Shown here piece after piece: positions 9,588 through 62,480 of a DNA stretch of 64,000 bases. This stretch comes from Clostridiales bacterium (GTDB lineage: Bacteria > Bacillota > Clostridia > Christensenellales > Aristaeellaceae). The stretch covers positions 62,001 to 126,000 of the forward strand of contig SVHC01000001.1 in the NCBI GenBank assembly GCA_015056055.1, given 5' to 3'. The position numbers were made by a program, and so were the translations under genes. Positions within the stretch are counted from its first letter, which is position 1. Every line of letters begins with the position of its first letter. Below the pieces are notes generated by a model. That model had not been told where the DNA came from, made no database searches, and was given only the letters and a program-made list of their open reading frames with translations.

Positions 9588-10391
9588 ATGAAAACTGCGA
9601 AAATGGTATCATGGTTGCTTGTAGTGACTTTACTGCTGGGCTGCATGATTTTTCCGGCGAGTGCAGAAGGGGAACGGCTGCCTCCTCCTGAAATTATGGA
9701 AAGGGAAGATTTGAATTTTCCGTATCTTACATTTGGTGCCTACGAGCAGGACAACAACCTTGAAAACGGTCCGGAACCCATTGAATGGCTCGTGCTGAAA
9801 GAAGAGGATGGAAGGGCGCTTGTACTCAGCCGCTATGCTCTGGCGCTGATGAAGTATCACCATACTGTTGCTATAGATTCTTCGGTTACGTGGGAAACGT
9901 GGGAAAGCCGCGCATGGCTGAATGGGGAATTTCTGGAAGCGGCTTTTTCCAAAGCGGAACAGGAAAGAATTCCTACGGTAACGGTGGAAACTCCTATGGT
10001 TCATGACCATGACCCGGGATTTGATAATGTCCCGGTTAACGATACCGAGGATAAACTGTTTCTTTTGAGCATGCAGGAGGCATCAAGGTACTTAAAGGGT
10101 GGAAAAGCACGCAGATGCCAGCCCACGGCATATGCCATTGCGGGTTATGAAGCTGCAATGGGGCAGGACTGGGAAACGTCTATGAGTGGATTCTGGAGGC
10201 GCGAAGAATACATGGGGAATTGCGTCTGGTATCTGCGTTCGCAAGGCAAATTTCCCGGCAGTGCCGCGCTTGTAGAAGTGTATGGCAGGATGACATATAT
10301 GTTTGATGCTATGATATATCTACCGGAACTCATTGTGCGTGATTTTATGTGGGGTATTCGCCCTGCAATGTGGATTGATTTGACACCGTAA
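9588..10391 (+). CDS. Secreted DUF6273-domain protein
   Basis: 267 aa. An N-terminal signal peptide is clear: charged start, hydrophobic core LLVVTLLLGCMIF, and cleavage near ASA-EGE at about residue 26. The body has the pattern of DUF6273 proteins: FGAYEQDNN, then PIEWLVLKEEDGRALVLSRYAL, then TWETWESRAWLNGEFLEAAF, with a C-terminal WGIRPAMWIDL strand. These domains are found in exported Firmicute proteins and resemble a lectin-like or SUMF-type fold; the function is not established. RBS AGGAG lies before the ATG. It is transcribed alone from the strong promoter at 9499, next to repeat DNA. Confidence 0.75.
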   Translation: MKTAKMVSWLLVVTLLLGCMIFPASAEGERLPPPEIMEREDLNFPYLTFGAYEQDNNLENGPEPIEWLVLKEEDGRALVLSRYALALMKYHHTVAIDSSVTWETWESRAWLNGEFLEAAFSKAEQERIPTVTVETPMVHDHDPGFDNVPVNDTEDKLFLLSMQEASRYLKGGKARRCQPTAYAIAGYEAAMGQDWETSMSGFWRREEYMGNCVWYLRSQGKFPGSAALVEVYGRMTYMFDAMIYLPELIVRDFMWGIRPAMWIDLTP

Positions 10392-10426
10392 GGCTTCCGT
10401 TTGGGAGACTGAAAGGTGATGACTAA

Positions 10427-10558
10427 TCCGCTATACCCATGGGATGCCACCTTCCGGGAAATGATGACTATGTTCTCGTTATGTGCGATGAAAAATACGG
10501 CGCTATCCACATGGATAAATATATTTTCGTTGCAGAGGTCAGAAACGTGCTGATTTAA
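10427..10558 (+). pseudogene. Possible remnant of a coding C-terminus
   Basis: A 43-codon open stretch lacks a good start or RBS, but its last two thirds read like real protein (GNDDYVLVMCDEKYGAIHMD, then KYIFVAEVRNVLI, then TAA). An overlapping frame from an ATG at 10419 gives a less protein-like 45-residue peptide. It may be the tail of a decayed gene downstream of the DUF6273 gene. The remaining bases between 10392 and 10580 show nothing else. Confidence 0.25.
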
Positions 10559-10584
10559 TGGCTGGAGCGTGAGGCTCCGCATAC

Positions 10585-10624
10585 AAAAGAATCCCCCGCA
10601 GAGCGTTTGAACTCTGCGGGGGAT
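10585..10624 (-). terminator. Terminator of the spo0A-like/deoB operon
   Basis: ATCCCCCGCAGAG (10591-10603) pairs with CTCTGCGGGGGAT (10612-10624). Read on the minus strand, the stem is followed by TCTTTTGT. Confidence 0.85.
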
Positions 10625-10643
10625 AATAATGCTCAGATGTGTT

Positions 10644-11816
10644 TTACAGCTTGATTTCGGAATAGAAGGATTCGCCGTCCACGCGACCCTTTGCGCCGAG
10701 GGCTTCAAGGATGGTGGCGGAGATATCCGCAAAGGAAGCGCGATCGCCGAGGTTTACGCCTTCCTGCAGACCGAGACCCCATACCAGTACCGGCACGCGC
10801 TCACGGGTGTGATCGGTTCCTTTATAGGTCGGGTCGCAGCCGTGGTCGGCGGTGATGATGAGCATGCCGTTATCGCCCAAGAGGCGCAGGATTTCCGGCA
10901 GACGCTGGTCAAAGTTTTCCAGGCAGCGGGCAAATCCGTCCACATCCCTGCGGTGGCCGTACATGGAATCGGTATCGACAAGGTTTGCAAACAGCAGACC
11001 CTTCCAGCCGGGCTTTTTCAGTGCTTCGATGATGGCATCGGTGCACTCTTCGTTGCCGGCGGCGTGATTGGAGAAGGTCAGGCTGCGGTGATTGAAGATG
11101 TCCTCAATCTTGCCCACGCCGTAAACATCGTAGCCCTCGCCGGACAGAACGTCCAGCATGGTCTTCCCGGCGGGATCAACGGAGAAATCGCGGCGGTTGC
11201 CGGTGCGCACGAATGCGCCGGGCGTGCCGCTGAAGGGGCGTGCGATAACGCGGGCAACGCCGTACTTGCCCTTGCATACGCGGCGGGCAATGCGGCAGAT
11301 GTGCCACAGTTCCATCGGGGGAATAATGGCCTCATGCGCAGCGATCTGGAAAACGCTGTCCGCAGAGGTGTAAACGATCAGTTTGCCGGTCAGCAGATGC
11401 TCGGGGCCGAGTTCCTCGATGATTTCCGTGCCGGATGCGGCGCGGTTGCCGATGACCTGCATGCCGCTTTCACGTTCAAACGCTTCGATCAATTCTGCCG
11501 GGAAGCCGTTCGGGAAGGTGGGGAAGGGCTCTTCCAGCGTAAGTCCCGCGATTTCCCAGTGACCGGTGGTGGTGTCTTTTCCGGCGGCTTTTGCCTGCAG
11601 GGTGCCGTAATTGCCGATGGGCGGCTCGTCTTCATCGCCCATGCCTACGGTGTCCAGAAGACCCAGCTCGCTCAGATTCGGAATGGAAGGCTTGCCTGCT
11701 TCCAGAACATGCTTGAGGGTGTTGGCGCCCTCATCGCCGTATTTTGCAGAGTCTGCCTGCGCACCTGCTCCAAGCGCGTCAAGAACGACCAGTGCTACTC
11801 TTTGGATATTTGCCAT
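10644..11816 (-). CDS. deoB: Phosphopentomutase
   Basis: 390 aa, the usual DeoB length. It interconverts ribose (or deoxyribose) 1-phosphate and 5-phosphate in nucleoside salvage. Alkaline-phosphatase-superfamily metal motifs are visible: VVLDALGAGA near the N-terminus, the DTTTGHWE signature (about residues 81-88), and ITADHGCDPTYKGTDHTRE near the C-terminus. RBS GGAGGG lies before the ATG, inside the end of the upstream gene; the two overlap by 22 bases, so translation is probably coupled. Terminated by the hairpin at 10591-10624. Confidence 0.95.
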   Translation of the reverse strand: MANIQRVALVVLDALGAGAQADSAKYGDEGANTLKHVLEAGKPSIPNLSELGLLDTVGMGDEDEPPIGNYGTLQAKAAGKDTTTGHWEIAGLTLEEPFPTFPNGFPAELIEAFERESGMQVIGNRAASGTEIIEELGPEHLLTGKLIVYTSADSVFQIAAHEAIIPPMELWHICRIARRVCKGKYGVARVIARPFSGTPGAFVRTGNRRDFSVDPAGKTMLDVLSGEGYDVYGVGKIEDIFNHRSLTFSNHAAGNEECTDAIIEALKKPGWKGLLFANLVDTDSMYGHRRDVDGFARCLENFDQRLPEILRLLGDNGMLIITADHGCDPTYKGTDHTRERVPVLVWGLGLQEGVNLGDRASFADISATILEALGAKGRVDGESFYSEIKL

Positions 11817-47593: not shown

Positions 47594-48958
47594 TTATTCA
47601 CGTTCATCCATGGGGACATAGGGCTCGCGATTCATAACCGCGCGGTATGCAGGACGGATGATGCGGCCGCCGGTGTAGACCTCTTCGATGCGGTGTGCGC
47701 ACCAGCCGGCGATGCGGGCGATGGCAAACAGAGGAGTGAACAGATCTTCCGGAATGCCCAGCATCTGATAAATCAGGCCGGAGTACATATCTACGTTGGC
47801 GCAGATGCGCTTGCGTCCGCCCAGACGGCTGGACAGTGCGCGCAGACCCTGACGCTCGATGGATTCCATCAGATTGAAATCCTCGATGCAGCCCTTGCTC
47901 TCAACGAGTTCGCGGGCATACTTCTTGAGCATGAGGGTACGCGGGTCACTGACGGTATAGACTGCATGACCCAGACCGTAGATCTTGCCGCTCTTATCGT
48001 TTGCTTCCTTGTCGAGAATCTTATTGAGATAGTGGTAAATGGCATCTTCATCCGTAGTGTCGCGGACGTTTTCGCGGATGTTGCGGTACATTTCCATAAC
48101 CTTGGCATTCGCGCCGCCGTGCAGGGGACCTTTCAGCGCATTGATTGCGCCGGCGATCGCACCGTATGTATCCGTACCGGTGGAAGAAAGAACGCGGCAG
48201 GTAAAGGCGGAGTTGTTACCGCCGCCGTGCTCCGCGTGCAGGATGAGCATCATATCCAGAATATGCGCTTCCAGCGAGGTGAATTTTTTGTCCGGGCGGA
48301 GAATATAAAGGAAGTTTTCAGCGACGGAAAGATTTTCATCCGGTACATGGATAAAGAGAGAGTCGCCGTCGTAGTAGTGCTTCTTTACGGAGTAGGCATT
48401 TGCAACAATGACGGGGAAACGGCCGATCAGCTCAATAGACTGGCGAACCAGATTTTCGATGGAGTTATCGTCCGGATTGTCGTCATAGGAATACAGAGCC
48501 AGAACGCCGCGGGAAAGTTTGTTCATTACATTGCGGCTGGGGGCTTTGATGATCATGTCTTCCGTAAAGCCTGCGGGCAGCTTACGCGTTGCGGAAAGCA
48601 GCGAATCAAAGCGGGCAAGCTGCTCCTTGTTGGGAAGCTGACCCAGAAGAAGCAGGTATACAACCTCTTCAAAACCGAAGGTGCCGTCCTCCATGTGGGA
48701 ATTAACGATATCGATTACGTTGTATCCGCGGTAAAAAAGTTGTCCGGGGATGGATTCGGGTTCGCCGTCTACCATCTGATAACCGCGAACGCTGCCGACA
48801 CCGGTAACGCCGGCAAGAACACCGGTTCCGTCCGAATTGCGCAGACCGCGCTTGATATTGTAGCTGCTGAACTGGCTGGGATCGATAGAATAATTGTGTT
48901 TTACGTCATTAGACAGTTCGGCGATATAATTGTTTAGCATCTGCTGACTATACTGCAT
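47594..48958 (-). CDS. gltA: Citrate synthase
   Basis: 454 aa from the ATG at 48958; GGAGG nine bases upstream overlaps the alternative first Met codon at 48973. The catalytic His regions HAEHGGGNNSAFTCR and GPLHGGAN, GLGHAVYTVSDPR, and the late NVDMYSGLIYQMLG segment (catalytic Asp) are present. It condenses acetyl-CoA and oxaloacetate. It is divergent from the aconitase/isocitrate dehydrogenase operon, which completes a route to 2-oxoglutarate and glutamate. Confidence 0.95.
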   Translation of the reverse strand: MQYSQQMLNNYIAELSNDVKHNYSIDPSQFSSYNIKRGLRNSDGTGVLAGVTGVGSVRGYQMVDGEPESIPGQLFYRGYNVIDIVNSHMEDGTFGFEEVVYLLLLGQLPNKEQLARFDSLLSATRKLPAGFTEDMIIKAPSRNVMNKLSRGVLALYSYDDNPDDNSIENLVRQSIELIGRFPVIVANAYSVKKHYYDGDSLFIHVPDENLSVAENFLYILRPDKKFTSLEAHILDMMLILHAEHGGGNNSAFTCRVLSSTGTDTYGAIAGAINALKGPLHGGANAKVMEMYRNIRENVRDTTDEDAIYHYLNKILDKEANDKSGKIYGLGHAVYTVSDPRTLMLKKYARELVESKGCIEDFNLMESIERQGLRALSSRLGGRKRICANVDMYSGLIYQMLGIPEDLFTPLFAIARIAGWCAHRIEEVYTGGRIIRPAYRAVMNREPYVPMDERE

Positions 48959-48992
48959 CAGATAGTCCTCCATAATTCAAACATGATGTGAT

Positions 48993-49021
48993 AGTATACA
49001 CTATTTTGAGCCAAAATGCAA
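48993..49021 (-). promoter_or_regulatory. Promoter of citrate synthase
   Basis: TTGCAT (49016-49021), 17-base spacer, TATACT (48993-48998), minus strand. Confidence 0.65.
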
Positions 49022-49100
49022 TATTAAGATTTTATAAATTGCAGAAGAGGATGCGAAAGTGAAGATTACATGGATTTTTCGAAGCATACGACTATGTTTC

Positions 49101-49130
49101 TTGCAATGTACAAGCGGGTTGTGATATAAT
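49101..49130 (+). promoter_or_regulatory. Promoter of the aconitase-idh operon
   Basis: TTGCAA (49101-49106), 18-base spacer, TATAAT (49125-49130) with an extended -10 TGA. Confidence 0.75.
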
Positions 49131-49152
49131 GCAAAATCAGGGGGTGGCGAAT

Positions 49153-51312
49153 ATGATAACGCTGTTCGATAAAGGAATAAATCTTGTAAACGGAATCCCG
49201 GTTGAGGCCGGTTGTGAGGATAATGCGTCTTCCCGCGAGAAGACGATGGCTTTTTCGATTCTTACCGGGCACAATCAGGCAAAAGACCTGAAAAATGCCA
49301 GGATTAAATTTGATGCGCTGATTTCGCATGATATTACCTATTGCGGAATCATTCAGACCGCGCGTGCCAGCGGATTGGCCGAGTTCCCGGTGCCCTATGC
49401 GCTGACCAACTGCCACAACAGCCTGTGCGCTGTCGGCGGCACCATTAATGAGGATGACCATGCCTTCGGTCTGTCTGCTGCAAAGAAATACGGCGGCATC
49501 TATGTGCCGGCGAATATGGCGGTTATTCACCAGTATGCCCGCGAAATGATGGCAACCTGCGGCGGTATGATTCTGGGCTCCGACAGTCACACCCGTTATG
49601 GCGCTCTGGGCTGCATGGGCGTTGGTGAGGGCGGTCCCGAACTGGTTAAGCAGCTTCTGGGCAATACTTACGACCTTTCTTCGCCGAAGGTTGTGCTTGT
49701 ATATATGGAAGGCGAAGTTCCGCACGGCGTTGGTCCGCACGATGTAGCGCTGGCCATCTGCGGCGCGGTATATAAGAACGGCTTCGTCAAGAACAAGATC
49801 ATGGAATTCGCAGGTCCCGGCATTGCAAATCTGCCGATGGACTTCCGTATTGCCGTGGACGTTATGACGACCGAAACCGCATGCCTAAGCTCCGTCTGGG
49901 CAACCGACGATAAGACGAAGAAATATTATGTAGACCACGGCCGTGCAGATGCTTACAAGGCCATGGCTCCCGGCGAAGGCGCTTACTACGATTGCATGGT
50001 GCGCGTAAACCTTTCCAAGGTAAAGCCCATGATCGCGCTGCCGTACCATCCCTCCAACGCATACACCATCGACGAGTTCCGCGCCAATGCAAAGGATATT
50101 CTGGCCGATGCGGGCTGGGTGGCCGATAAGTGGCAGAACGGCAAGTTTGTGATGGACCAGGGCGTTATCGCAGGCTGCTCCGGCGGTATGTATCAGAATA
50201 TTGCAGAGGCGGCTGCCATTCTGCGCGGCAGGGACGTGGGCGGCTTCCCGCTGTCCGTATATCCGGCAAGTCTGCCGGTCAATGTCGCTCTGGCAGACAG
50301 GGGCCATCAGGCGACCCTCATGCGCGCGGGCGCACTGTTCAAGCCGTGCTTCTGCGGTCCGTGCTTCGGCGCGGGCGATGTACCGCGCAACATGGGTCTT
50401 TCCGCCCGCCATACCACGCGCAACTTCCCCAACCGCGAAGGCTCCAAGCCGTCCGAAGGCCAGATGGCAGCCGTCGCACTGATGGATGCGCGTTCCATCG
50501 CAGCAACTGCCCTCAACGGCGGTGTGCTGACCCCGGCAAACGAAATTGATTACGAGCGCAACTGGGAAGAAACCGAAGCGTTCGACAGCTCCATCTATGC
50601 AAAGAATGTTTATTTCGGCGTAGGCCGTCCGCAGAAGGATGCTTCCCTGCTGTTTGGCCCCGGTATTGCCGACTGGCCGAAGTTCGAAGCGCTGCGTGAT
50701 AACGTGCTTATCGGCATTGCAAGCTCGCTGAATGATGCTGTTACCACCACGGATGAACTGATTCCCTCCGGCGAAACTTCCAGCTATCGTTCCAATCCGA
50801 TCCGTCTTTCCGAGTTCGCGCTTTCCCGCCGCGATCCGGAATACGTGGGCCGCTCCAAGGCGATTCGCGACGGTCAGGCCGATTGGAAGAGCATTGCCGA
50901 GCTGGTAGGCGCTGAGGAAGAAAACACCACCATCGGTTCCGGTATCTGGGCCAACTGCCCGGGCGACGGTTCCGCACGCGAGCAGGCCGCATCCTGCCAG
51001 CGTGTACTGGGCGGTATTGCCAATATTTCCGCCGAATATGCTACGCGCCGCTATCGCGCAAACCTGATCAACTGGGGTATTCTGCCCTTTATTGCCCAGC
51101 CCATGGGAATCGAAGTCGGCGACTGGATCTATGTTCCGAATGTTCGTGAGCATCTGATCTCCGGCGCTGAGGAGTTTGCCGCAGTGCTTGTTCGCAATGG
51201 TGAAAAGAGTGATATTACTGTCAAGCTGCCGGGTATGACGGCGGAAGAACGCGAACTTATCGCACAGGGCTGCCTGATCAACCATTATGCTGCGCAGCGC
51301 GCAAAGGAGTAA
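49153..51312 (+). CDS. Aconitase-family hydratase (YbhJ-like)
   Basis: 719 aa from the ATG at 49153 (GGGGGTGG RBS). The aconitase fold is shown by [36 protein letters not shown], and the cluster Cys pair in [16 protein letters not shown]. It belongs to the less studied hydratase branch related to E. coli YbhJ rather than AcnA/AcnB. Its position between citrate synthase and isocitrate dehydrogenase makes citrate-isocitrate isomerisation the likely role. idh begins 8 bases downstream. Confidence 0.88.
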
Positions 51313-51320
51313 CGCAATTT

Positions 51321-52520
51321 ATGAATCGAATTCGTATGGCCAATCCCATCGTCGAGATGGATGGCGACGAGATGACCCGAATCATCTGGCAGCAGATTAA
51401 AGAAGAACTGCTGGAGCCCTTTGTGGAACTGAATACGGAATACTACGACCTCGGTCTCAAAAACCGCGACGCTACGGATGACCGCGTGACCATCGAGGCG
51501 GCAGAAGCCACCAAGAGGGTCGGTGTCGCCGTAAAGTGCGCGACCATCACCCCCAATGCGCAGCGCGTTGAGGAATATGGCCTGAAGAAAATGTGGAAGA
51601 GCCCGAACGGCACCATCCGCGCCGCACTCGACGGTACGGTATTCCGCGCTCCGATTCTGGTGAAAAATATCCAGCCCGTTGTGCGCACCTGGAAAAAGCC
51701 CATTACCATTGCGCGCCATGCTTACGGCGATGTATACAAGGCCAGCGAAATCCGAGTTCCCGGCGCGGGCAAGGCCGAAATCGTATTCACCGCACAGGAC
51801 GGTACGCAGCAGACCAAGCTGGTGCATGAATTTGACGGCGCAGGTCTTCTGCAGGGCATGCACAACACCGATGCATCCATCCGTGCATTTGCGCATTCCT
51901 GCTTCCGCTATGCGGTCGAAACCGAGCAGAGCCTGTGGTTCTCCACGAAGGATACGATTTCCAAGACGTATGACCAGACTTTCAAAATGATCTTCCAGGA
52001 AATCTACGAAAGTGACTATAAGGCCGATTTCGAAGCAAAGGGTATCGAATACTTCTATACCCTGATCGACGATGCGGTTGCGCGCGTAATCCGTTCCGAG
52101 GGCGGCTTTATCTGGGCGCTGAAGAATTATGACGGCGACGTCATGAGCGATATGGTTTCCACTGCGTTCGGCTCCCTTGCAATGATGACGAGCGTTCTGG
52201 TAAGCCCGAGCGGCGTATTCGAGTACGAGGCGGCGCACGGCACCGTAACGCGCCATTATTACCGTCACCTTAAGGGCGAGGAAACCTCTACCAACCCCAT
52301 GGCAACCATCTTTGCATGGACCGGCGCACTCAAAAAGCGCGGCGAACTCGACGGAAATGCGGAACTTTGCGCATTCGCCGAATCCGTGGAAAAGGCCTGT
52401 ATTGCCGCCATCGAGGAAGGCTATGTAACCGGCGACCTTGCTGCTCTCATCGGTCCGGAAGCCAAGAAGCTTACCACCATGGGATTCCTCAAAAACGTCC
52501 GCGCACGTTTGGAAGCATAA
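51321..52520 (+). CDS. icd: Isocitrate dehydrogenase, eukaryote-like (type II) NADP form
   Basis: 399 aa. The start [16 protein letters not shown], the phosphate-binding [20 protein letters not shown] and the [24 protein letters not shown] signature are those of the homodimeric type II enzymes shared with eukaryotes, not the E. coli Icd type. It oxidises isocitrate to 2-oxoglutarate. RBS AAAGGAG lies at the end of the aconitase gene; the two are co-transcribed. Confidence 0.95.
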
Positions 52521-53827: not shown

Positions 53828-53856
53828 TTGACGAGAAGTTCACAAAGTGATACAAT
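53828..53856 (+). promoter_or_regulatory. Promoter of the T-box/ior operon
   Basis: TTGACG (53828-53833), 17-base spacer, TACAAT (53851-53856). Confidence 0.8.
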
Positions 53857-53899
53857 TCAATCAATTATAACAAAATTACGAATGAAACCTTTGAAGCGG

Positions 53900-54146
53900 A
53901 AATCAAACCGTGATGCGCACCTACAGAGAGCGGGGGATGGTGGAAGCCCTGCGGAAGGCGGTACGGCAAATGGCCCGCTGAGGGCGAGGGGAACGGCAGC
54001 AATGCCCAGTATCCGGGACGCAGGCCGGCGTTATTGGCAGGAGGCGTGATTGCGCCTTCGTAAGGAGTGACCTGTGTTTTTTGCAGGTCAACAAAGGTGG
54101 TACCGCAGAATAGAGTCTGCCCTTTGACGGGGGCAGACTTTTGTTT
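53900..54146 (+). ncRNA. T-box riboswitch, probably tryptophan-specific
   Basis: The leader has the hallmarks of a T-box: the AGAGAG...GGTGGAAGC distal stem-I region (about 53925-53948), a specifier region followed six bases later by GAG, the T-box AAAGGTGGTACCGC (54093-54106), and a terminator (AGTCTGCCC 54114-54122 with GGGCAGACT 54131-54139 plus a T-run). The codon in the specifier position is TGG at 53971-53973 (Trp). Uncharged tRNA(Trp) would prevent termination and switch on iorA-iorB-paaK. The specifier was placed by comparison with other T-boxes, not by folding. Confidence 0.85.
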
Positions 54147-54185
54147 ATGCAAAATAGATTTCAGATTGCAACCAGTGGTATTTCA

Positions 54186-54443
54186 ATCCGCAGCGGCGGC
54201 GTGTACGCCGCGAGGAGCGTATTTTTTCGCAGGAAAGCCTGCGGACCGGAGAAAAAATCGCTTCCCTGCAGATTTCACGGCCGGAAGGCATGGCCTTCAA
54301 GTGAAATCCGGAGAGGGGACGAACGAAGTGCGCGCCCAGTGGGCGAAACAGCACGGCGTGAGTCCAATAAGCAAAGGAGCACAACTAGCTTAGCGACGCT
54401 GGGCGACTATTGCGCATTGAGGAATGCTTGCTTCCCCGACCAC
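54186..54443 (+). repeat. Structured intergenic repeat, copy D (full length)
   Basis: Contains all modules: GC-rich end hairpin (54193-54213), CGCAGG/CCTGCG stem with T/A-runs (about 54221-54258), the double stem at 54271-54308 (GATTTCAC/GTGAAATC outside, GAAGGC/GCCTTC inside), CGCCC/GGGCG (54333-54345), and the GCGCATTGAGGAATGC end. The inner stem sequence differs from copies A and B but stays paired. It lies between the T-box terminator and iorA, and fills most of the 701-base gap together with the T-box. Confidence 0.8.
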
Positions 54444-54445
54444 TG

Positions 54446-54475
54446 GTCTAACCTTTGATGGGGCAGACTTTTTTG
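54446..54475 (+). terminator. Degenerate second copy of the T-box terminator
   Basis: GTCTAACC-TTTGAT-GGGGCAGAC followed by a T-run closely resembles the true T-box terminator at 54114-54146, but its left arm is mutated (AA where GC is needed), so the stem is weak. It borders repeat copy D. Confidence 0.55.
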
Positions 54476-54512
54476 TATAGCAGGAAGGCGGTTCCTGCGA
54501 GAGGAGGACAAT

Positions 54513-56282
54513 ATGGAACTTTTGATGGGCAACGAAGCCATCGCGATGGGCGCGCTGGCAGCAGGCGTGCAGTTTGTATCGGGCTATCCGGGCACGCCGT
54601 CTACGGAGGTATTGGAAACGGTCGCAAAGCGCAGGCCGGAACATGTATATGTGGAATGGTCGGTGAATGAAAAGGCTGCTCTGGAGGTTGCTGCGGGCGC
54701 AGCGCTTGCGGGTGCGCGTGCGATGGTCACGATGAAGCAGGTGGGCCTGAATGTGGCAAGCGATCCATTGATGTGCCTCAACTATATCGGCGTGAAAGGC
54801 GCTCTGGTTGTGGTTGTGGCTGATGATCCCGGCCCGATTTCTTCGCAGACGGAGCAGGATACGCGCCATTTTGCGCGCTATGCCCGCATTCCGGTTTTTG
54901 ATCCGCAGACGCCGGAACAGGCATACCGCATGGTGAAGGACGCTTTTGAATGGTCCGAAAAATACCACACTCCGGTGATTCTCCGCCCGACAACGCGCGT
55001 GTGCCACGGCTGCGCCGCGATGGAAGTGGAAGAACCTGCCCCCGCAAGGGAAATTGAGGGCTTTGTGAAGGACGACAGCAAGTGGGTTATTTTCCCCCGA
55101 ACGTCGTTCCTGGCAAAAAAACGCCTGTTTGCGCAGGAAACGGAATTTGCGGATGCGCTTTCCGAATACAGCGAAAACTGCATCTGGGGCGAGGGCAAGC
55201 TCGGTATCGCAACCGGCGGCGGAACGGCTGCCTATGTGAAAGAAAATGACCTTCCGGCAAAGTATTTTGCGGTGGGAACGCCGTGGCCTTTCCCGGAGAA
55301 GAAGGCGCTTGAATTCCTGGAAGGACTGGATGCGGTGCTCGTATTGGAAGAGCTGGATCCCGTGATTGAAGATGCGCTGATTGCGGTATGCGGCAAATAC
55401 CGTCTGGATGTGAAAATTCTCGGCAAGCGCACGGGCGATATTCCGGCAGCGGGCGAATTGAGTGTTGAAAGCGCAGGCGCATGCATGAGGAAATTCCTCG
55501 GCATCGAGTGCGCGGAAGAAAAGCCGGCGGAAATGCCTGCCCTTCCGGTGCGTCCTCCGGTATTGTGCGCAGGATGCCCGCACAGGGGTTCCTTCTACGC
55601 GGTCAAGCAGGCGCTTAAGGGGCGTAAGGCTGTGTTCTCCGGTGATATCGGGTGCTATACGCTGGGCAACGCCGCGCCGCTGAATATGGTGGATACCTGC
55701 CTGTGCATGGGCGCAGGCGTAACCATGGCGCAGGGACTTGCACGCATGGAGAAGGATACCGTGCATGTTGCCTTTATCGGTGACTCCACCTTCTTCCATT
55801 CCGGAATTCCCGGCGTGGTAAATGCGCTTTATAACAATGCGGATGAAATTATCGTGGTGCTGGATAACTCCACTACCGCAATGACGGGCCATCAGCCGCA
55901 TCCGGGCATCGGCAAAACAATGATGGGCGGCGTACAGCCTGCAATTTCGCCGGTTGAGGTTCTGAAGGCGCTGGGCGTAAAAACGTGGCGTGCAAATGCG
56001 CTGAATCTGGAAGAGGCAAAAGCGGCAATCTGCGAAGCTGCCGAAGAGACCGGCGTACGCGCGGTGGTGCTTGAAAGCCCGTGCATAGCAATCGTGAAAA
56101 AGAAGGCGGCAATGGCTATCGACCGGGATAAGTGCATCGGCTGCAAAAAATGCGTGCGTGAAATCGGCTGCCCGGCAATCAGCATCGAGGGCGGTAAGGC
56201 AAGGGTTGATAAGACTCTGTGCACCGGCTGCACGCTGTGCGCACAGATTTGTCCCGTGAAGTGCATCGGGAAGGAGGCGTGA
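54513..56282 (+). CDS. iorA: Indolepyruvate:ferredoxin oxidoreductase, alpha subunit
   Basis: 589 aa, the IorA length. An N-terminal pyrimidine/TPP domain (FVSGYPGTPSTEVLE), a TPP-binding GDSTFFHSGIPGVVNALY...VVLDNSTTAMTG (about residues 425-460), and a C-terminal ferredoxin domain with two 4Fe-4S motifs (CIGCKKCVREIGCP, CTGCTLCAQICP). It converts indolepyruvate to indoleacetyl-CoA with ferredoxin, reversibly. RBS GAGAGGAGG before the ATG. First gene of iorA-iorB-paaK under a Trp T-box. Confidence 0.95.
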   Translation: MELLMGNEAIAMGALAAGVQFVSGYPGTPSTEVLETVAKRRPEHVYVEWSVNEKAALEVAAGAALAGARAMVTMKQVGLNVASDPLMCLNYIGVKGALVVVVADDPGPISSQTEQDTRHFARYARIPVFDPQTPEQAYRMVKDAFEWSEKYHTPVILRPTTRVCHGCAAMEVEEPAPAREIEGFVKDDSKWVIFPRTSFLAKKRLFAQETEFADALSEYSENCIWGEGKLGIATGGGTAAYVKENDLPAKYFAVGTPWPFPEKKALEFLEGLDAVLVLEELDPVIEDALIAVCGKYRLDVKILGKRTGDIPAAGELSVESAGACMRKFLGIECAEEKPAEMPALPVRPPVLCAGCPHRGSFYAVKQALKGRKAVFSGDIGCYTLGNAAPLNMVDTCLCMGAGVTMAQGLARMEKDTVHVAFIGDSTFFHSGIPGVVNALYNNADEIIVVLDNSTTAMTGHQPHPGIGKTMMGGVQPAISPVEVLKALGVKTWRANALNLEEAKAAICEAAEETGVRAVVLESPCIAIVKKKAAMAIDRDKCIGCKKCVREIGCPAISIEGGKARVDKTLCTGCTLCAQICPVKCIGKEA

Positions 56283-56286
56283 GGAA

Positions 56287-56874
56287 ATGTACAGTTGTTT
56301 ATTGTGCGGTGTAGGCGGACAGGGAACCGTTCTGGCTTCGCGTCTGATGGCACAGGCTGCCATGGAAAAAGGTTACTTTGCGCGTACGGCGGAAACCATC
56401 GGCATGGCGCAGCGCGGCGGCTGCGTGGTCAGCCATGTGCGCGTGGCTGAGGGGGATATCGCATCCTCACTGATTCCCGTGGGCGGCGCGGATGTGCTGG
56501 TGGGATTTGAACCGGGTGAGGCTGTCAGATGCCTGAAATACCTGAAACCGGACGGGCTTGCGGTGGTTTGCAAAACGCCGGTTGCGCCGGTAATGGCTTC
56601 CCTTAAAGGCGATGAATACGACGCGGATGTCATGATGGAATATCTGAAGGCAAATGCAAAGCATCTGATCGTATTGGATGCGGAGGAAATCGTCCGCGTC
56701 TGCGGCACGATGCGCGCGCTGAATGTTGCACTGCTCGGCGCAGTGGCAGCAAGCGGAAAAATGCCGCTTACCATGGAAGAAGCGGAAAATGCACTCCGGA
56801 AAAAAATCAAGCCGGAGCTTCTGGAAATAAATCTGACCGCGCTGAAATACGGCGCAGGAGCAAAGGAGGAATAG
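56287..56874 (+). CDS. iorB: Indolepyruvate:ferredoxin oxidoreductase, beta subunit
   Basis: 195 aa. The gamma-type domain starts with LLCGVGGQGTVLASRLMAQA, and TAETIGMAQRGGCVVSHVRV is the typical second motif. It partners IorA. It begins 4 bases after the iorA stop, with GGAGG inside the end of that gene. Confidence 0.93.
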   Translation: MYSCLLCGVGGQGTVLASRLMAQAAMEKGYFARTAETIGMAQRGGCVVSHVRVAEGDIASSLIPVGGADVLVGFEPGEAVRCLKYLKPDGLAVVCKTPVAPVMASLKGDEYDADVMMEYLKANAKHLIVLDAEEIVRVCGTMRALNVALLGAVAASGKMPLTMEEAENALRKKIKPELLEINLTALKYGAGAKEE

Positions 56875-56877
56875 ACC

Positions 56878-58116
56878 ATGACGATGAAGCAGGAAGTGCT
56901 GGACATTATTCGCGAACAAATCCGAAAGCTTAAGACCATTGAAAACGGTTTTTATGCACAGCGTTTTGCGGATATTGACCCGGATGCCATCCGTACGCAG
57001 GAGGATTTCGAAAATCTGCCCTTTACCGATAAGGGAAATCTGCGCGATGCGTATCCTTTGGGACTGGCTGCGGTTCCGGAAGAGGAAATCGTCCGCATCC
57101 ATTCCTCGAGCGGCACGACGGGTACGCCCGTTATCATCCCCTACACCCGCAAGGACGTGGATGACTGGGCGGAAATGTTCAAGCGCTGCTATGAAATCGC
57201 GGGTATCACGCCCAAAGACCGCGTGCACATCACGCCCGGTTATGGTCTGTGGACGGCGGGCATTGGTTTTCAGGCGGGTGCGGAGCGTCTGGGTGCAATG
57301 GTCATTCCCATGGGTCCGGGCAATACGGATAAGCAGATTCGCTTTATGCAGGACATGGGCTCCACCGTTTTGTGCGCCACCAGCTCCTATGCATTGCTTC
57401 TTGCCGAGGAAATTGAAAAGCGCGGCGTGATCAATAAGCTCAAGCTTAAAAAAGGCGTTATCGGCTCCGAACGCTGGGGCGAAAAGATGAGAAAGCGCAT
57501 TGCCGGCGAACTGGGCGTTTCTCTGTATGATATTTACGGTCTGACCGAAATCTATGGCCCCGGCATCGGCATCAGCTGCGATGCAGACAAGGGTATGCAT
57601 GTGTTCGATGATTTCCTCTACTTTGAGGTCATTGATCCCAAGACGGGGAAGAATGTGCCGGACGGGGAGATCGGCGAACTGGTTATCACGACCCTGCGCA
57701 AGGAAGGTGCGCCGCTGATTCGCTATCGCACGCACGATCTTACCCGCATTCTGACGGGCGAATGTCCCTGCGGCTGCAAATATCCGCGTATCGAGGCGAT
57801 CCTTGGCCGCACGGACGATATGGTCAAGGTCAAGGGCGTGAATATCTTCCCCGGACAGATCGACGAACTTCTGCATGAGGTCGAGGGTGTCAGCAGCGAA
57901 TATCAGGTGATGATCGACCACTTTGACGGTAAGGACAGGATCACGCTGTTCTTTGAAACCGAGATGCCTGCGGAGGAACGCAAGGCTCTGGGAACTGCTG
58001 TTCAGGCGCATTTCAAGGCGCGCATCGGCGTGACCGTGGTTCCCAAGCCGGTGTCCATCGGTGAACTCCCGCGCAGCGAGAAAAAATCTCAGCGCATTTT
58101 TGACAACCGCTACTAA
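56878..58116 (+). CDS. paaK: Phenylacetate/arylacetate-CoA ligase
   Basis: 412 aa AMP-forming ligase of the PaaK type. The ATP motif HSSSGTTGTPVIIPYT (about residues 77-92), YGLTEIYGPG (about 219-228), and C-terminal YRTHDLTRIL and GRTDDMVKVKGVNIFPGQ are diagnostic. It makes or uses an arylacetyl-CoA, the substrate or product of IorAB, so the three genes form one pathway between arylacetate and aryl pyruvate. RBS GGAGG inside the end of iorB. Confidence 0.92.
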   Translation: MTMKQEVLDIIREQIRKLKTIENGFYAQRFADIDPDAIRTQEDFENLPFTDKGNLRDAYPLGLAAVPEEEIVRIHSSSGTTGTPVIIPYTRKDVDDWAEMFKRCYEIAGITPKDRVHITPGYGLWTAGIGFQAGAERLGAMVIPMGPGNTDKQIRFMQDMGSTVLCATSSYALLLAEEIEKRGVINKLKLKKGVIGSERWGEKMRKRIAGELGVSLYDIYGLTEIYGPGIGISCDADKGMHVFDDFLYFEVIDPKTGKNVPDGEIGELVITTLRKEGAPLIRYRTHDLTRILTGECPCGCKYPRIEAILGRTDDMVKVKGVNIFPGQIDELLHEVEGVSSEYQVMIDHFDGKDRITLFFETEMPAEERKALGTAVQAHFKARIGVTVVPKPVSIGELPRSEKKSQRIFDNRY

Positions 58117-58312: not shown

Positions 58313-59308
58313 ATGAAAAAAGCAGTTGCTCTGATTCTTGCAATGGTGATGGCGCTGGGAATGGTATCTGCGGCTGCGCAGGAAGAAACGTTTACCATCG
58401 GTATCTGCCAGTTTGACGGGCATGTGGCTTTGGAGGAGTCCACGCAGGGCTTTATGGATGCGATCACCGAAGTGCTGGGTGACAGAGCCATCTTTGATGA
58501 GCAGGATGCCGCCGGCGAGATTTCCCTTTGCAGCACGATCGTGAATAACTTCGTGGTGAAGGACGTGGATCTTATACTGGCAAATTCCACACCGGCGCTG
58601 CAGACCGCTGCATCCGCTACCTATGATATTCCCATTCTGGGAACTTCCGTGACGGAATACGGCGCTGCGCTGGATATTGCGGATTTTTATGGTATCGTCG
58701 GCTACAATGTATCCGGAACGAGCGACCTTGCACCGCTGGACAAGCAGGCGGCTATGATCACAACATTGTTTCCCGAGGCCCAAAATGTCGGCCTTTTGTA
58801 TTGCTCCAGCGAGGCAAATTCTGACTATCAGGTAAAAGTCGTAAGTGAGCTTCTGACGAAGGCCGAGATCAACGTAAAGGAATTTCCCTTTATGGACACC
58901 AGTGATATTGCCGCCGTATGCTATGCGGCGTGCGAATTCAGCGACGTGATCTATGTGCCCACGGATAACGTGGTGGCCTCTTCTGCCGCCATCGTGGACG
59001 GAGTGTGCCGCCCCATGGGCGTGCCGGTCATCGGCGGCGACGAGGGCATCTGCTCTGCCTGCGGCGTGGCTACGCTGTGCATCAGTTACTACGAACTGGG
59101 CTATACCACGGGCAAAATGGCGCTGCGCATCCTGCTGGACGGCGAGGATGTTGCAACGATGCCCATTGAATATGCCCCGGTATTTATGAGGCTGTACAAT
59201 TCGGAGATCTGCGCAGAACTGGGAATCACGCCTCCGGAAGAGTATGTTGAGATCGGTACGACCTTGCCGGTTGAAACAGAGGGAATTGAGAGTGATACAA
59301 AAAATTAA
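58313..59308 (+). CDS. trpX: ABC transporter substrate-binding protein (TrpX-like), copy 1
   Basis: 331 aa from the ATG at 58313 (GGGGGGAA RBS). Signal peptide AVALILAMVMALGMVSAAA, then a PF04392-type (ABC_sub_bind/TrpX) body: TFTIGICQFDGHVALEE, PILGTSVTEYGAAL, NVSGTSDLAPLDKQAAM, VIYVPTDNVVASSAAIV and the ISYYELGYTTGKMAL end. No lipobox is evident. The family is proposed to bind tryptophan or related aromatics. It is similar along its whole length to the protein at 59601-60632. Confidence 0.88.
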   Translation: MKKAVALILAMVMALGMVSAAAQEETFTIGICQFDGHVALEESTQGFMDAITEVLGDRAIFDEQDAAGEISLCSTIVNNFVVKDVDLILANSTPALQTAASATYDIPILGTSVTEYGAALDIADFYGIVGYNVSGTSDLAPLDKQAAMITTLFPEAQNVGLLYCSSEANSDYQVKVVSELLTKAEINVKEFPFMDTSDIAAVCYAACEFSDVIYVPTDNVVASSAAIVDGVCRPMGVPVIGGDEGICSACGVATLCISYYELGYTTGKMALRILLDGEDVATMPIEYAPVFMRLYNSEICAELGITPPEEYVEIGTTLPVETEGIESDTKN

Positions 59309-59320
59309 CACTCTAAACTC

Positions 59321-59349
59321 TTGCGTAATTATACAAACGGGAGTATAAT
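59321..59349 (+). promoter_or_regulatory. Promoter before the 34-codon ORF
   Basis: TTGCGT (59321-59326), 17-base spacer, TATAAT (59344-59349). Confidence 0.7.
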
Positions 59350-59381
59350 TGCAGCAACTTAAAGGGAAAGGGGAATGCAGG

Positions 59382-59486
59382 ATGAAAAACGGTATTTTTG
59401 CAGAAGTGCGTTCCCTGTTTGCAGCTTCCCGATTTGTGGCAGGCTTTATTTATCATGCCCGATTTCGATTTGCAAATGGGGGCTGA
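59382..59486 (+). CDS. Small ORF, 34 aa, Phe/Arg-rich (possible leader peptide)
   Basis: ATG at 59382 preceded by GGAAAGGGG; the peptide starts MKNGIFAEVRSLFAASRF and ends in ARFRFANGG. It has 6 Phe, 5 Arg and no Trp. It follows a good promoter and precedes a hairpin terminator (59522-59557) and the second binding-protein gene. That is the layout of an attenuator leader peptide, but it could also be a stand-alone small protein or chance. Confidence 0.4.
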   Translation: MKNGIFAEVRSLFAASRFVAGFIYHARFRFANGG

Positions 59487-59521
59487 TTCAGGATATACCT
59501 GCTGATTGCTTGTGATACTTG

Positions 59522-59557
59522 AAAGCGGCTCCGTTTATTCTGACGGCGCCGCTTTTT
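59522..59557 (+). terminator. Terminator/attenuator before the second binding-protein gene
   Basis: AAAGCGGCTCCGT (59522-59534) pairs with ACGG..GCCGCTTT (59543-59555); T-run to 59557. Confidence 0.75.
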
Positions 59558-59600
59558 GGTATAAAAAAAGAAGTATGGAAGTATGGAAGGAGAACTCACA

Positions 59601-60632
59601 ATGAAGAAGGTACTTGCTCTGGTTCTGGTTGCTATGATGATGCTCGGCTCTGTCTGCGCGGTCGCGGAAGATACGACGTACACGATCGGTATCTGTCAGC
59701 TGGTTCAGCATGTGGCGCTCGACGCTGCGACGCAGGGTTTCAGGGATGCCATCACCGAAGTTCTGGGCGATAAGGTCGTATTCGATGAAAAGAATGCTTT
59801 CGGCGATTCGCCTACCTGTGCAACCATCGTCAACGGATTTGTTTCCGCAAATGTGGATCTGATTCTCGCCAATGCGACGCCCGCCCTTCAGGCTGCGGCT
59901 TCTGCATCCTACGATATTCCGATCCTCGGTACCTCCGTTACCGAGTACGGCGTTGCTCTTGAAATTCCGGATTTCACCGGCGTTGTCGGCTACAACGTAT
60001 CCGGCACGAGCGACCTTGCTCCCCTCGACCAGCAGGCGGCGATGATCGTTGAGCTGTTCCCCGAGGCGAAGAACGTGGGCCTGCTGTTCTGCTCCAGCGA
60101 ACCCAACTCTGCCTATCAGGTAAAGGTCGTTGCTGAGGAATTGGCAAAGGTCGGCATCACCACTAAGGATTTCCCGTTCTCTGATCTGAACGACGTAGCG
60201 GCGGTCACCACGGCAGCCTGCGAGTTCAGCGATGTTATCTACGTTCCCACCGATAACACCGTAGCATCCGCCACCGGTATCGTTGACGGCGTTTGCCGCC
60301 CGGCAGGCGTTCCGATCATCGCGGGTGAAGAAGGCATCTGCTCCGGCTGCGGCGTTGCAACGCTTTCCATCAGCTACTATGATCTGGGCTATGCCACCGG
60401 CCTGATGGCTCTGCGCATTCTCGTGGACGGCGAGGACATCACCAAGATGCCCATCGAATATGCTCCGAACTTCACCAAGAAGTACAACGAGGAAATCAGC
60501 GCTGAGTTCGGTGTGACCATTCCCGAGGATTACATTGCCATCGGCGCTGAAGAAGAAGCCGAAGCAGCCGAAGAAGGCGAAACGGCTGAGGGAACCGAGG
60601 CAGCAGAGGAATCTGAACCTGCTGCGGAATAA
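59601..60632 (+). CDS. trpX: ABC transporter substrate-binding protein (TrpX-like), copy 2
   Basis: 343 aa from the ATG at 59601 (AAGGAG RBS). Signal peptide VLALVLVAMMMLGSVCAVA; the body repeats all motifs of copy 1 (TYTIGICQLVQHVALDA, PILGTSVTEYGVAL, NVSGTSDLAPLDQQAAM). It adds an acidic C-terminal tail of about 25 residues (repeats of EEAEAAEEGE type). It is directly followed by the permease and ATPase genes, so it is probably the main partner of this transporter. Copy 1 may have different ligand preference or regulation. Confidence 0.9.
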   Translation: MKKVLALVLVAMMMLGSVCAVAEDTTYTIGICQLVQHVALDAATQGFRDAITEVLGDKVVFDEKNAFGDSPTCATIVNGFVSANVDLILANATPALQAAASASYDIPILGTSVTEYGVALEIPDFTGVVGYNVSGTSDLAPLDQQAAMIVELFPEAKNVGLLFCSSEPNSAYQVKVVAEELAKVGITTKDFPFSDLNDVAAVTTAACEFSDVIYVPTDNTVASATGIVDGVCRPAGVPIIAGEEGICSGCGVATLSISYYDLGYATGLMALRILVDGEDITKMPIEYAPNFTKKYNEEISAEFGVTIPEDYIAIGAEEEAEAAEEGETAEGTEAAEESEPAAE

Positions 60633-60656
60633 CGCGGAATTATTTGTAAGCGGACA

Positions 60657-60684
60657 GCGTTTCAGGCCATTCGGCCTGAAACGC
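60657..60684 (+). other. 12-bp intercistronic hairpin
   Basis: GCGTTTCAGGCC (60657-60668) pairs perfectly with GGCCTGAAACGC (60673-60684) around ATTC. There is no T-run. Such hairpins after binding-protein genes often protect the upstream mRNA end and raise its level above that of the permease. Confidence 0.6.
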
Positions 60685-60766
60685 CTCTGTGCTTAAATGG
60701 CAAGAATAGCGGACGGATTCGAAGAGATTCGCCGGTATTCTTTGCACGTTTTGGGAGGATGATTAC

Positions 60767-61693
60767 ATGTCGCTGACCACGCTGCTTGCGGCCATGCCCG
60801 GTGCGATCTCACAGGGCGTTATCTGGGGAATCATGGCCATTGGCGTATATATCACATATAAAGTGCTCGACTTTTCGGATCTGACGGTGGACGGTTCTAT
60901 CTGCACCGGCGCAGCGGTCTGTGTCGTGCTGATGATCAATGGCGTAAGTCTGCCGATCGCAATGGTTGCTGCCGTGGCTGCCGGTATGCTTACGGGTCTG
61001 GTTACGGGCCTGTTCCATACGTTCATGGGAATCCCGGCGATCCTTGCCGGCATCCTTACGCAGCTTTCGCTGTATTCTGTCAATCTGAAAATCATGGGTA
61101 AAGCCAATCAGGCCATCAATGCCCGCAACTATGATCTTCTGGTCAGCATGCAGAAGTTGCGCAATGTACCTTTTTATGAGAACACGATTTTTATTGTGCT
61201 GCTGTTTTCGGCGGTCATGATTGCGGTTCTGTACTGGTTCTTCGGAACGGAGGCGGGCTGCTCGCTGCGTGCGACCGGTTCCAATCTCAATATGAGCCGC
61301 GCGCAGGGCATCAACACGAATTTCAACAAGGTTTTGGGACTGATGATCTCCAACGGCATTGTGGCCCTTGCGGGCGCGCTGCTTGCGCAGTATCAGGGCT
61401 TTGCTGAGGTGCAGATGGGCCGCGGCGCCATCGTTATCGGTCTGGCGGCAGTTATCATCGGTGAAGCGCTGTTTGGAAAAATCTTCCGGAACTTTGCGCT
61501 CAGGATGGTCAGCGTAATTCTGGGCGGAATCGTGTATTACATTGTATATCAGACGGTTATTTTGTTTGGTCTGGATCCGGATCTTCTCAAAATGCTGTCG
61601 GCGCTGGTCGTGGCCACCTTCCTTGCGGTACCGCACTGGAAAAATAAGTGGTTTGCAAAGCCGGCAAAGAAGGGAGGAACAGATCATGCTTGA
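60767..61693 (+). CDS. trpY: ABC transporter permease (TrpY-like)
   Basis: 308 aa with 8-9 hydrophobic spans of the BPD_transp_2 (LivH-like) permease type. Typical strings are IMAIGVYITYKVLDFSDLTVDGS near the start, ATGSNLNMSRAQGINT (cytosolic loop to the ATPase), and GLAAVIIGEALFG. It forms the membrane channel for the substrate delivered by the TrpX proteins. RBS GGGAGG. It overlaps the ATPase gene by 8 bases. Confidence 0.88.
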   Translation: MSLTTLLAAMPGAISQGVIWGIMAIGVYITYKVLDFSDLTVDGSICTGAAVCVVLMINGVSLPIAMVAAVAAGMLTGLVTGLFHTFMGIPAILAGILTQLSLYSVNLKIMGKANQAINARNYDLLVSMQKLRNVPFYENTIFIVLLFSAVMIAVLYWFFGTEAGCSLRATGSNLNMSRAQGINTNFNKVLGLMISNGIVALAGALLAQYQGFAEVQMGRGAIVIGLAAVIIGEALFGKIFRNFALRMVSVILGGIVYYIVYQTVILFGLDPDLLKMLSALVVATFLAVPHWKNKWFAKPAKKGGTDHA

Positions 61694-62480
61694 GATCAGG
61701 AATGTATCCAAAACCTTCAATCCCGGCACGATCAATGCAAAAACGGCGCTTGACAATCTGAATCTTACGCTCAATGCGGGTGATTTTGTAACGGTAATCG
61801 GCGGCAACGGCGCGGGCAAGAGCACCATGCTCAACGCCATCGCGGGCGTGTGGAAGCCGGATGCGGGTTCCATCCATATCGACGGAACGAACGTTACCGG
61901 CATGCCCGAATACCGCCGCGCAAGATTCCTGGGCCGCGTATTTCAGGATCCGATGATGGGTACTGCGGCGGATATGGGAATCGAGGAAAATCTCGCGCTT
62001 GCCCTCAGGCGCGGCCAGAGGCGCACCATGCGCTGGGGCATTACTGCATCGGAACGCGAAATGTATCGCGAAAAGCTAAAGATGCTCAATCTGGGGCTGG
62101 AAAACCGCATGACCAGCAAGGTCGGTCTGCTTTCCGGCGGTCAGCGGCAGGCGCTTACCCTGCTTATGGCAACGCTCAAGCAGCCGAAGGTTCTGCTTCT
62201 GGATGAGCACACCGCGGCGCTTGACCCCAAAACGGCAGCGCTGGTATTGCAGCTGTCCGATCAGATCATCCGGGAAAACAATCTGACCACCCTGATGATC
62301 ACGCACAATATGCACGATGCCATTCAGCACGGAAACCGCCTGATTATGATGCATGAAGGTCATGTGATTCTGGATATTTCCGGCGAGGCAAAAAAGAAGC
62401 TCACCGTGGAGGAACTGCTGGAACAGTTCAGCGTGGCAAGCGGAAAGCAATTTGCCAGCGACCGCGCACTTCTGTCATAA
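61686..62480 (+). CDS. trpZ: ABC transporter ATP-binding protein (TrpZ-like)
   Basis: 264 aa from the ATG at 61686 (GGGAGG RBS inside the permease gene). Walker A GGNGAGKST (about residues 38-46), ABC signature LLSGGQRQALTLL, Walker B VLLLDEHTAALDPKTA, and the H-loop ITHNMHDAI. It energises import by the TrpXYZ complex. Translation is probably coupled to the permease by the 8-base overlap. Confidence 0.92.
   Translation: MLEIRNVSKTFNPGTINAKTALDNLNLTLNAGDFVTVIGGNGAGKSTMLNAIAGVWKPDAGSIHIDGTNVTGMPEYRRARFLGRVFQDPMMGTAADMGIEENLALALRRGQRRTMRWGITASEREMYREKLKMLNLGLENRMTSKVGLLSGGQRQALTLLMATLKQPKVLLLDEHTAALDPKTAALVLQLSDQIIRENNLTTLMITHNMHDAIQHGNRLIMMHEGHVILDISGEAKKKLTVEELLEQFSVASGKQFASDRALLS

Follow-up and report, generated by a model that had tools for sequence, protein, structure and literature searches.

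T-box leaders with a tryptophan specifier have been described in Firmicutes in front of trp and transporter genes, as set out in the 2008 survey (PMC2494555), and trpX of Streptococcus suis is one such example (PMC9382623). The leader examined here shares with them the tRNA-Trp specifier, control by antitermination and a connection with tryptophan supply; it differs in the genes that follow, which are iorA-iorB-paaK, in some genomes preceded by a TrpP-type ECF importer. In Methanococcus maripaludis (Porat 2004, cited in PMC4162585), IOR likewise serves biosynthesis, with aryl acids as the starting material, although that route is archaeal and described there without a T-box. In Bacteroides, according to the relevant passages of PMC13285125, IOR likewise lies beside an AMP-forming arylacetate-CoA ligase and a biosynthetic role has been proposed, on the argument that an AMP-forming ligase next to IOR is a sign of biosynthesis. 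However, those passages mention no T-box, and the in vivo data that they recount are oxidative, with the B. thetaiotaomicron IOR making phenylacetate from Phe. The HpdDEFG-HpdJ-HpdK system of Clostridium scatologenes, treated in the same paper (PMC13285125), also uses a 2-oxoacid:ferredoxin oxidoreductase on an arylpyruvate, but it is nearer to VOR than to IOR, has a phosphotransferase and a kinase, is induced by tyrosine and is oxidative.

A reverse IOR is thus already known in methanogens and has been proposed for Bacteroides; the archaeal precedent from aryl acids that was named in a sequence-only reading of this locus agrees with the methanogen cases related in PMC13285125 and PMC4162585. 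Control of ior-paaK by a Trp T-box and its union with TrpP were not found in print in the open-licence literature searched. No paper there brought a T-box together with indolepyruvate, the combination of T-box riboswitch and phenylacetate returned, by title, only work on T-box inhibitors, and the main text of the 2008 survey (PMC2494555) named neither indolepyruvate nor phenylacetate. On the evidence described below, we consider it likely that a tRNA-Trp T-box switches on iorA-iorB-paaK in tryptophan scarcity, and that the enzymes lead from indoleacetate through indoleacetyl-CoA and indolepyruvate to tryptophan.

The window is the whole 64,000-nucleotide stretch of DNA that was analysed, C8:62001-126000 of a genome (G000) in 80 contigs with a completeness of 95%, which bounds every gene absence reported here, and a contamination of 2.84%. 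This genome falls into one family with G043, the genome of the locus L053, which is that of Candidatus Fimadaptatus faecigallinarum, a genus placed in the class Clostridia (NCBI). The host had been taken for a gut Clostridium, and neither the Clostridium identity nor the gut origin is established for this genome. Relatives of IorA were drawn from two sources, namely named genomes, for which 80 of 167 confirmed loci were used, and 151 genomes of the window's family, among the matches listed. Family orthologues were called at an IorA identity of at least 54%, and partial IorA fragments (e.g., in G013) were left out of the orthologue counts. Elsewhere in the window, at 47594-52520, genes for citrate synthase, an aconitase-like hydratase and an NADP isocitrate dehydrogenase lie together as a short oxidative TCA arm.

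The leader and the genes behind it

The features of the locus, all on the plus strand, are as follows.

53828..53856, plus strand: sigma-70-like promoter upstream of the leader (TTGACG-17-TACAAT), called by sequence likeness alone from a consensus scan (10/12 matches)
53882..54127, plus strand: T-box leader (RF00230, 80.7 bits, model positions 1-219 of 219, E 7.8e-18 in a search of 701 bases)
53886..53983, plus strand: stem I, the specifier domain (covariance model R1, 99 bits; the window is among the 13 training sequences of that model)
53895..53899, plus strand: 5' arm AGCGG of the helix below the specifier loop, pairing with 53975-53979 (covariation)
53971..53973, plus strand: specifier TGG (Trp), 6 nt ahead of GAG
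53975..53979, plus strand: 3' arm CCGCT of the helix below the specifier loop (covariation)
54098..54101, plus strand: T-box motif UGGU, facing the tRNA 3' end (sequence)
54112..54141, plus strand: terminator hairpin, 13 pairs
54185..54449, plus strand: dispersed repeat that does not belong to the switch (44 matches across the genome, counting the query)
54513..56282, plus strand: iorA, indolepyruvate:ferredoxin oxidoreductase alpha subunit (TIGR03336, 706 bits against a cut-off of 651, equivalog level)
56287..56874, plus strand: iorB, beta subunit (157-167 bits with the best IOR-beta models, each under its cut-off; PF01558)
56878..58116, plus strand: paaK, AMP-forming arylacetate-CoA ligase (PF00501 and PF14535, both over cut-off)
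58313..62480, plus strand: neighbouring TrpX-like ABC transporter with two binding proteins, permease and ATPase (TrpX model 183 and 202 bits, cut-off 390)

A complete T-box leader fronts iorA-iorB-paaK (54513-58116). The default Rfam scan of the whole window gave no RF00230 match, because the score of 80.7 bits lies below the gathering score of 93, and this full-length match came from scanning the leader by E-value. Nine of the 13 T-boxes in the window's genome, most of which precede synthetase genes, likewise scored below 93. The T-box motif GGTGGTACC at 54096-54104 could base-pair with the 3' end of the tRNA. The terminator stretch (54106-54145) folds at -19.9 kcal/mol, a stability reached by 0 of 200 shuffles, and the plain minimum-energy fold of the leader had a z of -2.44 (2 of 200 shuffles equally stable). 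The specifier was placed from homologous leaders and not from this plain fold.

The T-box had been read as lying in front of iorA-iorB-paaK; the order was upheld, and a dispersed repeat intervenes between leader and gene. The repeat is flanked by the inverted ends ACCAGTGGT/ACCACTGGT and, at about 54446-54476, by an imperfect duplicate of the terminator's 3' half, and it leaves the leader terminator intact. It contains one terminator-like site (54203-54222), where 1.2 are expected per shuffled region, and the consensus scan found no promoter-like site in it.

The equivalog scores of IorB were too low to name it (TIGR03334, 160 against 206; best, 167 against 284), and its identity fits by position after iorA and by PF01558. 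The two subunits would probably form an enzyme acting on indolepyruvate. PaaK scored 384 bits against TIGR02155, below the equivalog cut-off of 646, and it is therefore a PaaK-like ligase of unproven substrate. The same genome carries a second cluster, paaK-iorA-iorB-paaK (G000:C10, L032 6301-11262), which gave no T-box match and whose IorA is 45% identical to that of the window. A second T-box, at G000:C27:38808-41318 (L003), precedes a paaK truncated at the contig end and probably reads Phe, with TTC 7 nt before GAG. This C27 PaaK is 93-95% identical to proteins of other genera and only about 50% identical to its best match in a same-genus genome, and the stretch has a GC content of 0.484 against 0.51-0.53; this identity pattern and the lower GC make transfer or contamination possible.

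The specifier codon and the cognate tRNA

A TGG specifier six bases ahead of GAG, as in other T-boxes, had been read from the sequence, and the spacing was confirmed within the window's own genome. Of its 13 T-box matches 12 were examined for the specifier, and the cognate codon stood exactly 6 nt before GAG in seven leaders (tyrS, metG, pheS, cysS, valS, ileS and serS; synthetase genes behind T-boxes were named by eye from the translations, not by a model). The rule has exceptions: the likely codon lies at 7 nt in the proS and C27 paaK leaders, the thrS leader gave no match and the hisS leader reads Asp.

The position of the specifier was further supported by structure, since only a single base (53974) separates TGG from a 5-bp helix that covaries among the homologous leaders. 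Over the first 13 leaders, 61 of 65 cells of this helix were paired and 21 had changed on both sides; shifting the helix by 1-3 columns abolished the pairing, and 0 of 20000 permutations of the partners were as good. In these 13 leaders, none of 500 shuffles equalled the observed value on three of five measures, and 42 and 35 of 500 did so on the remaining two. Over 25 leaders, in an alignment of related sequences fitted to the model, 91.6% of the 274 cells in three stem I helices were paired with 68 changed on both sides, and 0 of 500 shuffles matched on all five measures.

TGG was invariant in 25/25 leaders. The first 13 had been gathered via the T-box motif, blind to the specifier, and the other 12 are somewhat biased towards TGG because the stem I model was built from TGG leaders. 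That model also matched the metG, pheS and cysS T-boxes of the window's genome at 26-36 bits, so a match to it does not in itself mean Trp; the specifier does.

The A preceding TGG was likewise invariant (25/25), and a reading of ATG (Met), one base upstream, therefore had to be excluded by other evidence. Such a reading would place the codon at 7 nt, as in the proS and C27 paaK leaders of the same genome. However, metG of that genome has ATG at exactly 6 nt, and TrpP- and TrpX-type transporters lie behind the same kind of leader. The discriminator base also argued against Met: the three CAT-anticodon tRNA genes of the window's genome have A73, whereas the facing base in the leader, C in 12/25 leaders and T in 13/25, fits G73 where it is C. 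We rejected the Met specifier on spacing, discriminator base and downstream Trp-transporter genes, and regard it as very improbable. The Trp reading agrees with tRNA-Trp, which has G73 in all six genomes, of 12 searched, in which a tRNA-Trp was confirmed by ARAGORN. The leader of the window carries the T, which would form a wobble with G73, and no tRNA-Trp gene was found in the window's assembly.

Recurrence of the leader and its link to tryptophan transporters

Leaders of this type recur. The first 13, found by scanning the region ahead of iorA for the T-box motif, comprise that of the window, eight from the 80 named loci and four from other family genomes, and iorA-iorB-paaK lies downstream in all 13; in L053 an extra frame, methyltransferase-like by eye, stands between the leader and iorA. 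With those found by the stem I covariance model, at least 24 further leaders were present at related loci, 22 before iorA, one before paaK and one before a TrpX-type transporter. Five model matches at E 0.33 to 4.7 were dropped, the G043 leader was not counted beside L053 (same genome), the identical leaders of L135 and L239 were counted once, and L233, L236 and L237 were repeats of counted leaders. Motif matches in L087 (-1010), L094, L096 and L114 were judged by eye to be chance, and the stem I model had no match there; those in L130 and L137 were likewise put down to chance by eye. T-box, TGG specifier, gene order, gene content and recurrence can all be read from the DNA itself.

In the family, 24 genomes had an IorA orthologue among the matches listed, with a T-box upstream in 13 and, in one (G021), between iorB and paaK. 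Five of these 24 loci (G041, G029, G039, G137 and G027) run into a contig end, and the part that remains has no T-box; five others (G047, G091, G098, G066 and G099) had none within about 6 kb. Among the 80 named loci, PaaK lies downstream of iorA in 65 and a T-box precedes iorA in 11; most show none, and many are truncated where a contig stops. A search for Trp-rich leader peptides ahead of ior found them in 11/80 loci, T-box loci included, against 4/80 in single-base shuffles, and they looked scattered. In L036, some 130 nt ahead of iorA (6001), inspection by eye showed a promoter-like site and a short leader with a terminator-like hairpin and T run, but no T-box; this may be a different type of leader on ior.

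In at least ten genomes (L072, L080, L093, G149, G045, G120, G092, G113, G044 and G067), the order is T-box, TrpP-type ECF importer, iorA-iorB-paaK, with PaaK present downstream in 10/10. The S component passed the Pfam TrpP cut-off of 27.2 in the three tested (34.6, 34.7 and 49.8), and the other seven are TrpP-type by 48-70% identity to these three. In L087, the T-box lies before a TrpX-type ABC transporter adjoining ior-paaK. The leader is common to the TrpP-type importer and ior-paaK, and this ties IOR and ligase to tryptophan supply. The TrpX-like ABC transporter of the window was considered as a member of the T-box unit and set aside as a neighbour, since a match lay beside ior in 0/13 loci and in only one of the 80 named loci (L087).

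These associations bear on the substrate. The enzymes could run in reverse with phenylacetate or 4-hydroxyphenylacetate as their main substrate, and the Trp T-box would then be simply the starvation sensor that evolution happened on: characterised IORs, as summarised in PMC13285125, take phenyl-, hydroxyphenyl- and indolepyruvate, and the nearest solved relatives of PaaK are phenylacetate-CoA ligases (E 1e-91 to 4e-98). This seems quite unlikely to us, because all 25 leaders read TGG and none Phe or Tyr, because TrpP- and TrpX-type genes stand under the same leader, and because chorismate synthase occurs in 11/13 of the first T-box genomes, so that Phe and Tyr have another possible route. Indoleacetate is the substrate that we favour.

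Tryptophan genes and the direction of the pathway

In the window's genome, TrpA and indole-glycerol-phosphate synthase (IGPS) were not found, chorismate synthase is present, and a lone TrpB (511 bits) lies on the minus strand of G000:C33 (L031, about 10346-11550), apart from other trp genes. The question raised with the original reading, whether the genome lacks trp genes, was therefore answered in part: TrpA and IGPS were not found, but this orphan trpB is present, and its product may add Trp from indole as an alternative source. Its neighbours are an FtsH-like gene and others seemingly unrelated to Trp. TrpA was absent from 10/13 of the first T-box genomes and matched in G154 and G155 (weakly, 92-95 bits) and in G156. 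Among cultured carriers of the leader, Clostridium thermopalmarium DSM 5974 (L038) gave no TrpA match and Caproiciproducens galactitolivorans a weak one. IGPS was absent from all 14 family genomes with a T-box, yet also from 133/151 overall. It occurred in 1/24 genomes with ior (among the matches listed) and in 17/127 without (Fisher p 0.31), and the idea that ior goes together with trp gene loss was rejected as not significant against the family base rate.

In the route that we propose, uncharged tRNA-Trp would bind the leader and transcription would pass the terminator, a regulatory step grounded in established T-box biology. PaaK would activate indole-3-acetate to indoleacetyl-CoA with conversion of ATP to AMP, IorAB would use reduced ferredoxin to carboxylate indoleacetyl-CoA, and the resulting indolepyruvate would be converted to Trp by an aminotransferase, a candidate gene being found under a Tyr T-box elsewhere in the genome. 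The unit would replace those steps between chorismate and Trp that are missing, and it is joined in related genomes with a TrpP-type Trp importer. We infer the substrate, the direction of flux and the aminotransferase. At G000:C62 (L034 5503-8174), a Tyr T-box is followed by a PLP aminotransferase gene and tyrS.

Read oxidatively, as the name IOR implies, the operon would turn indolepyruvate into indoleacetyl-CoA and indoleacetate, and the T-box would tune its level or answer some other need. This accords with the IOR of B. thetaiotaomicron, reported to be oxidative in vivo, and with the related oxidative route of C. scatologenes (both in PMC13285125). However, putting Trp breakdown under the control of Trp starvation would be self-defeating, the ligase here is AMP-forming where, in the account of PMC13285125, the C. 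scatologenes route has a phosphotransferase and a kinase, and the leader is shared with TrpP-type importers. We therefore hold the oxidative operon to be unlikely. An AMP-forming PaaK favours formation of the CoA ester, and reverse flux fits best because of this ligase, the failure to find TrpA and IGPS, and the logic of induction by starvation. Against reverse flux stand the oxidative B. thetaiotaomicron IOR, the commonness of IGPS loss in the family at large, TrpA in 3/13 T-box genomes, the T-box-free ior loci, the lone TrpB and the repeat before iorA. The regulatory half of the original proposal, in which a Trp T-box pointed to IorAB and PaaK in reverse, is thus well supported by TGG in every leader and by recurrence, and its metabolic half stands as the best-fitting reading, with the direction inferred.

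The leader offers genome-encoded evidence on a pathway direction that is disputed in bacteria, because cells short of an amino acid are not expected to induce its degradation. Biosynthetic and catabolic IORs could be told apart by a simple marker, the presence of a TGG T-box upstream of ior or paaK. Indole-3-acetate is usually counted only as a microbial product; if the proposed route is true, it would have bacterial consumers, and the absence of trp genes would wrongly mark these bacteria as Trp auxotrophs. We lean towards the view that several lineages of Clostridia have given up the last part of the trp branch for starvation-induced TrpP import or for rebuilding by PaaK and IorAB, both under one kind of tRNA-Trp riboswitch.
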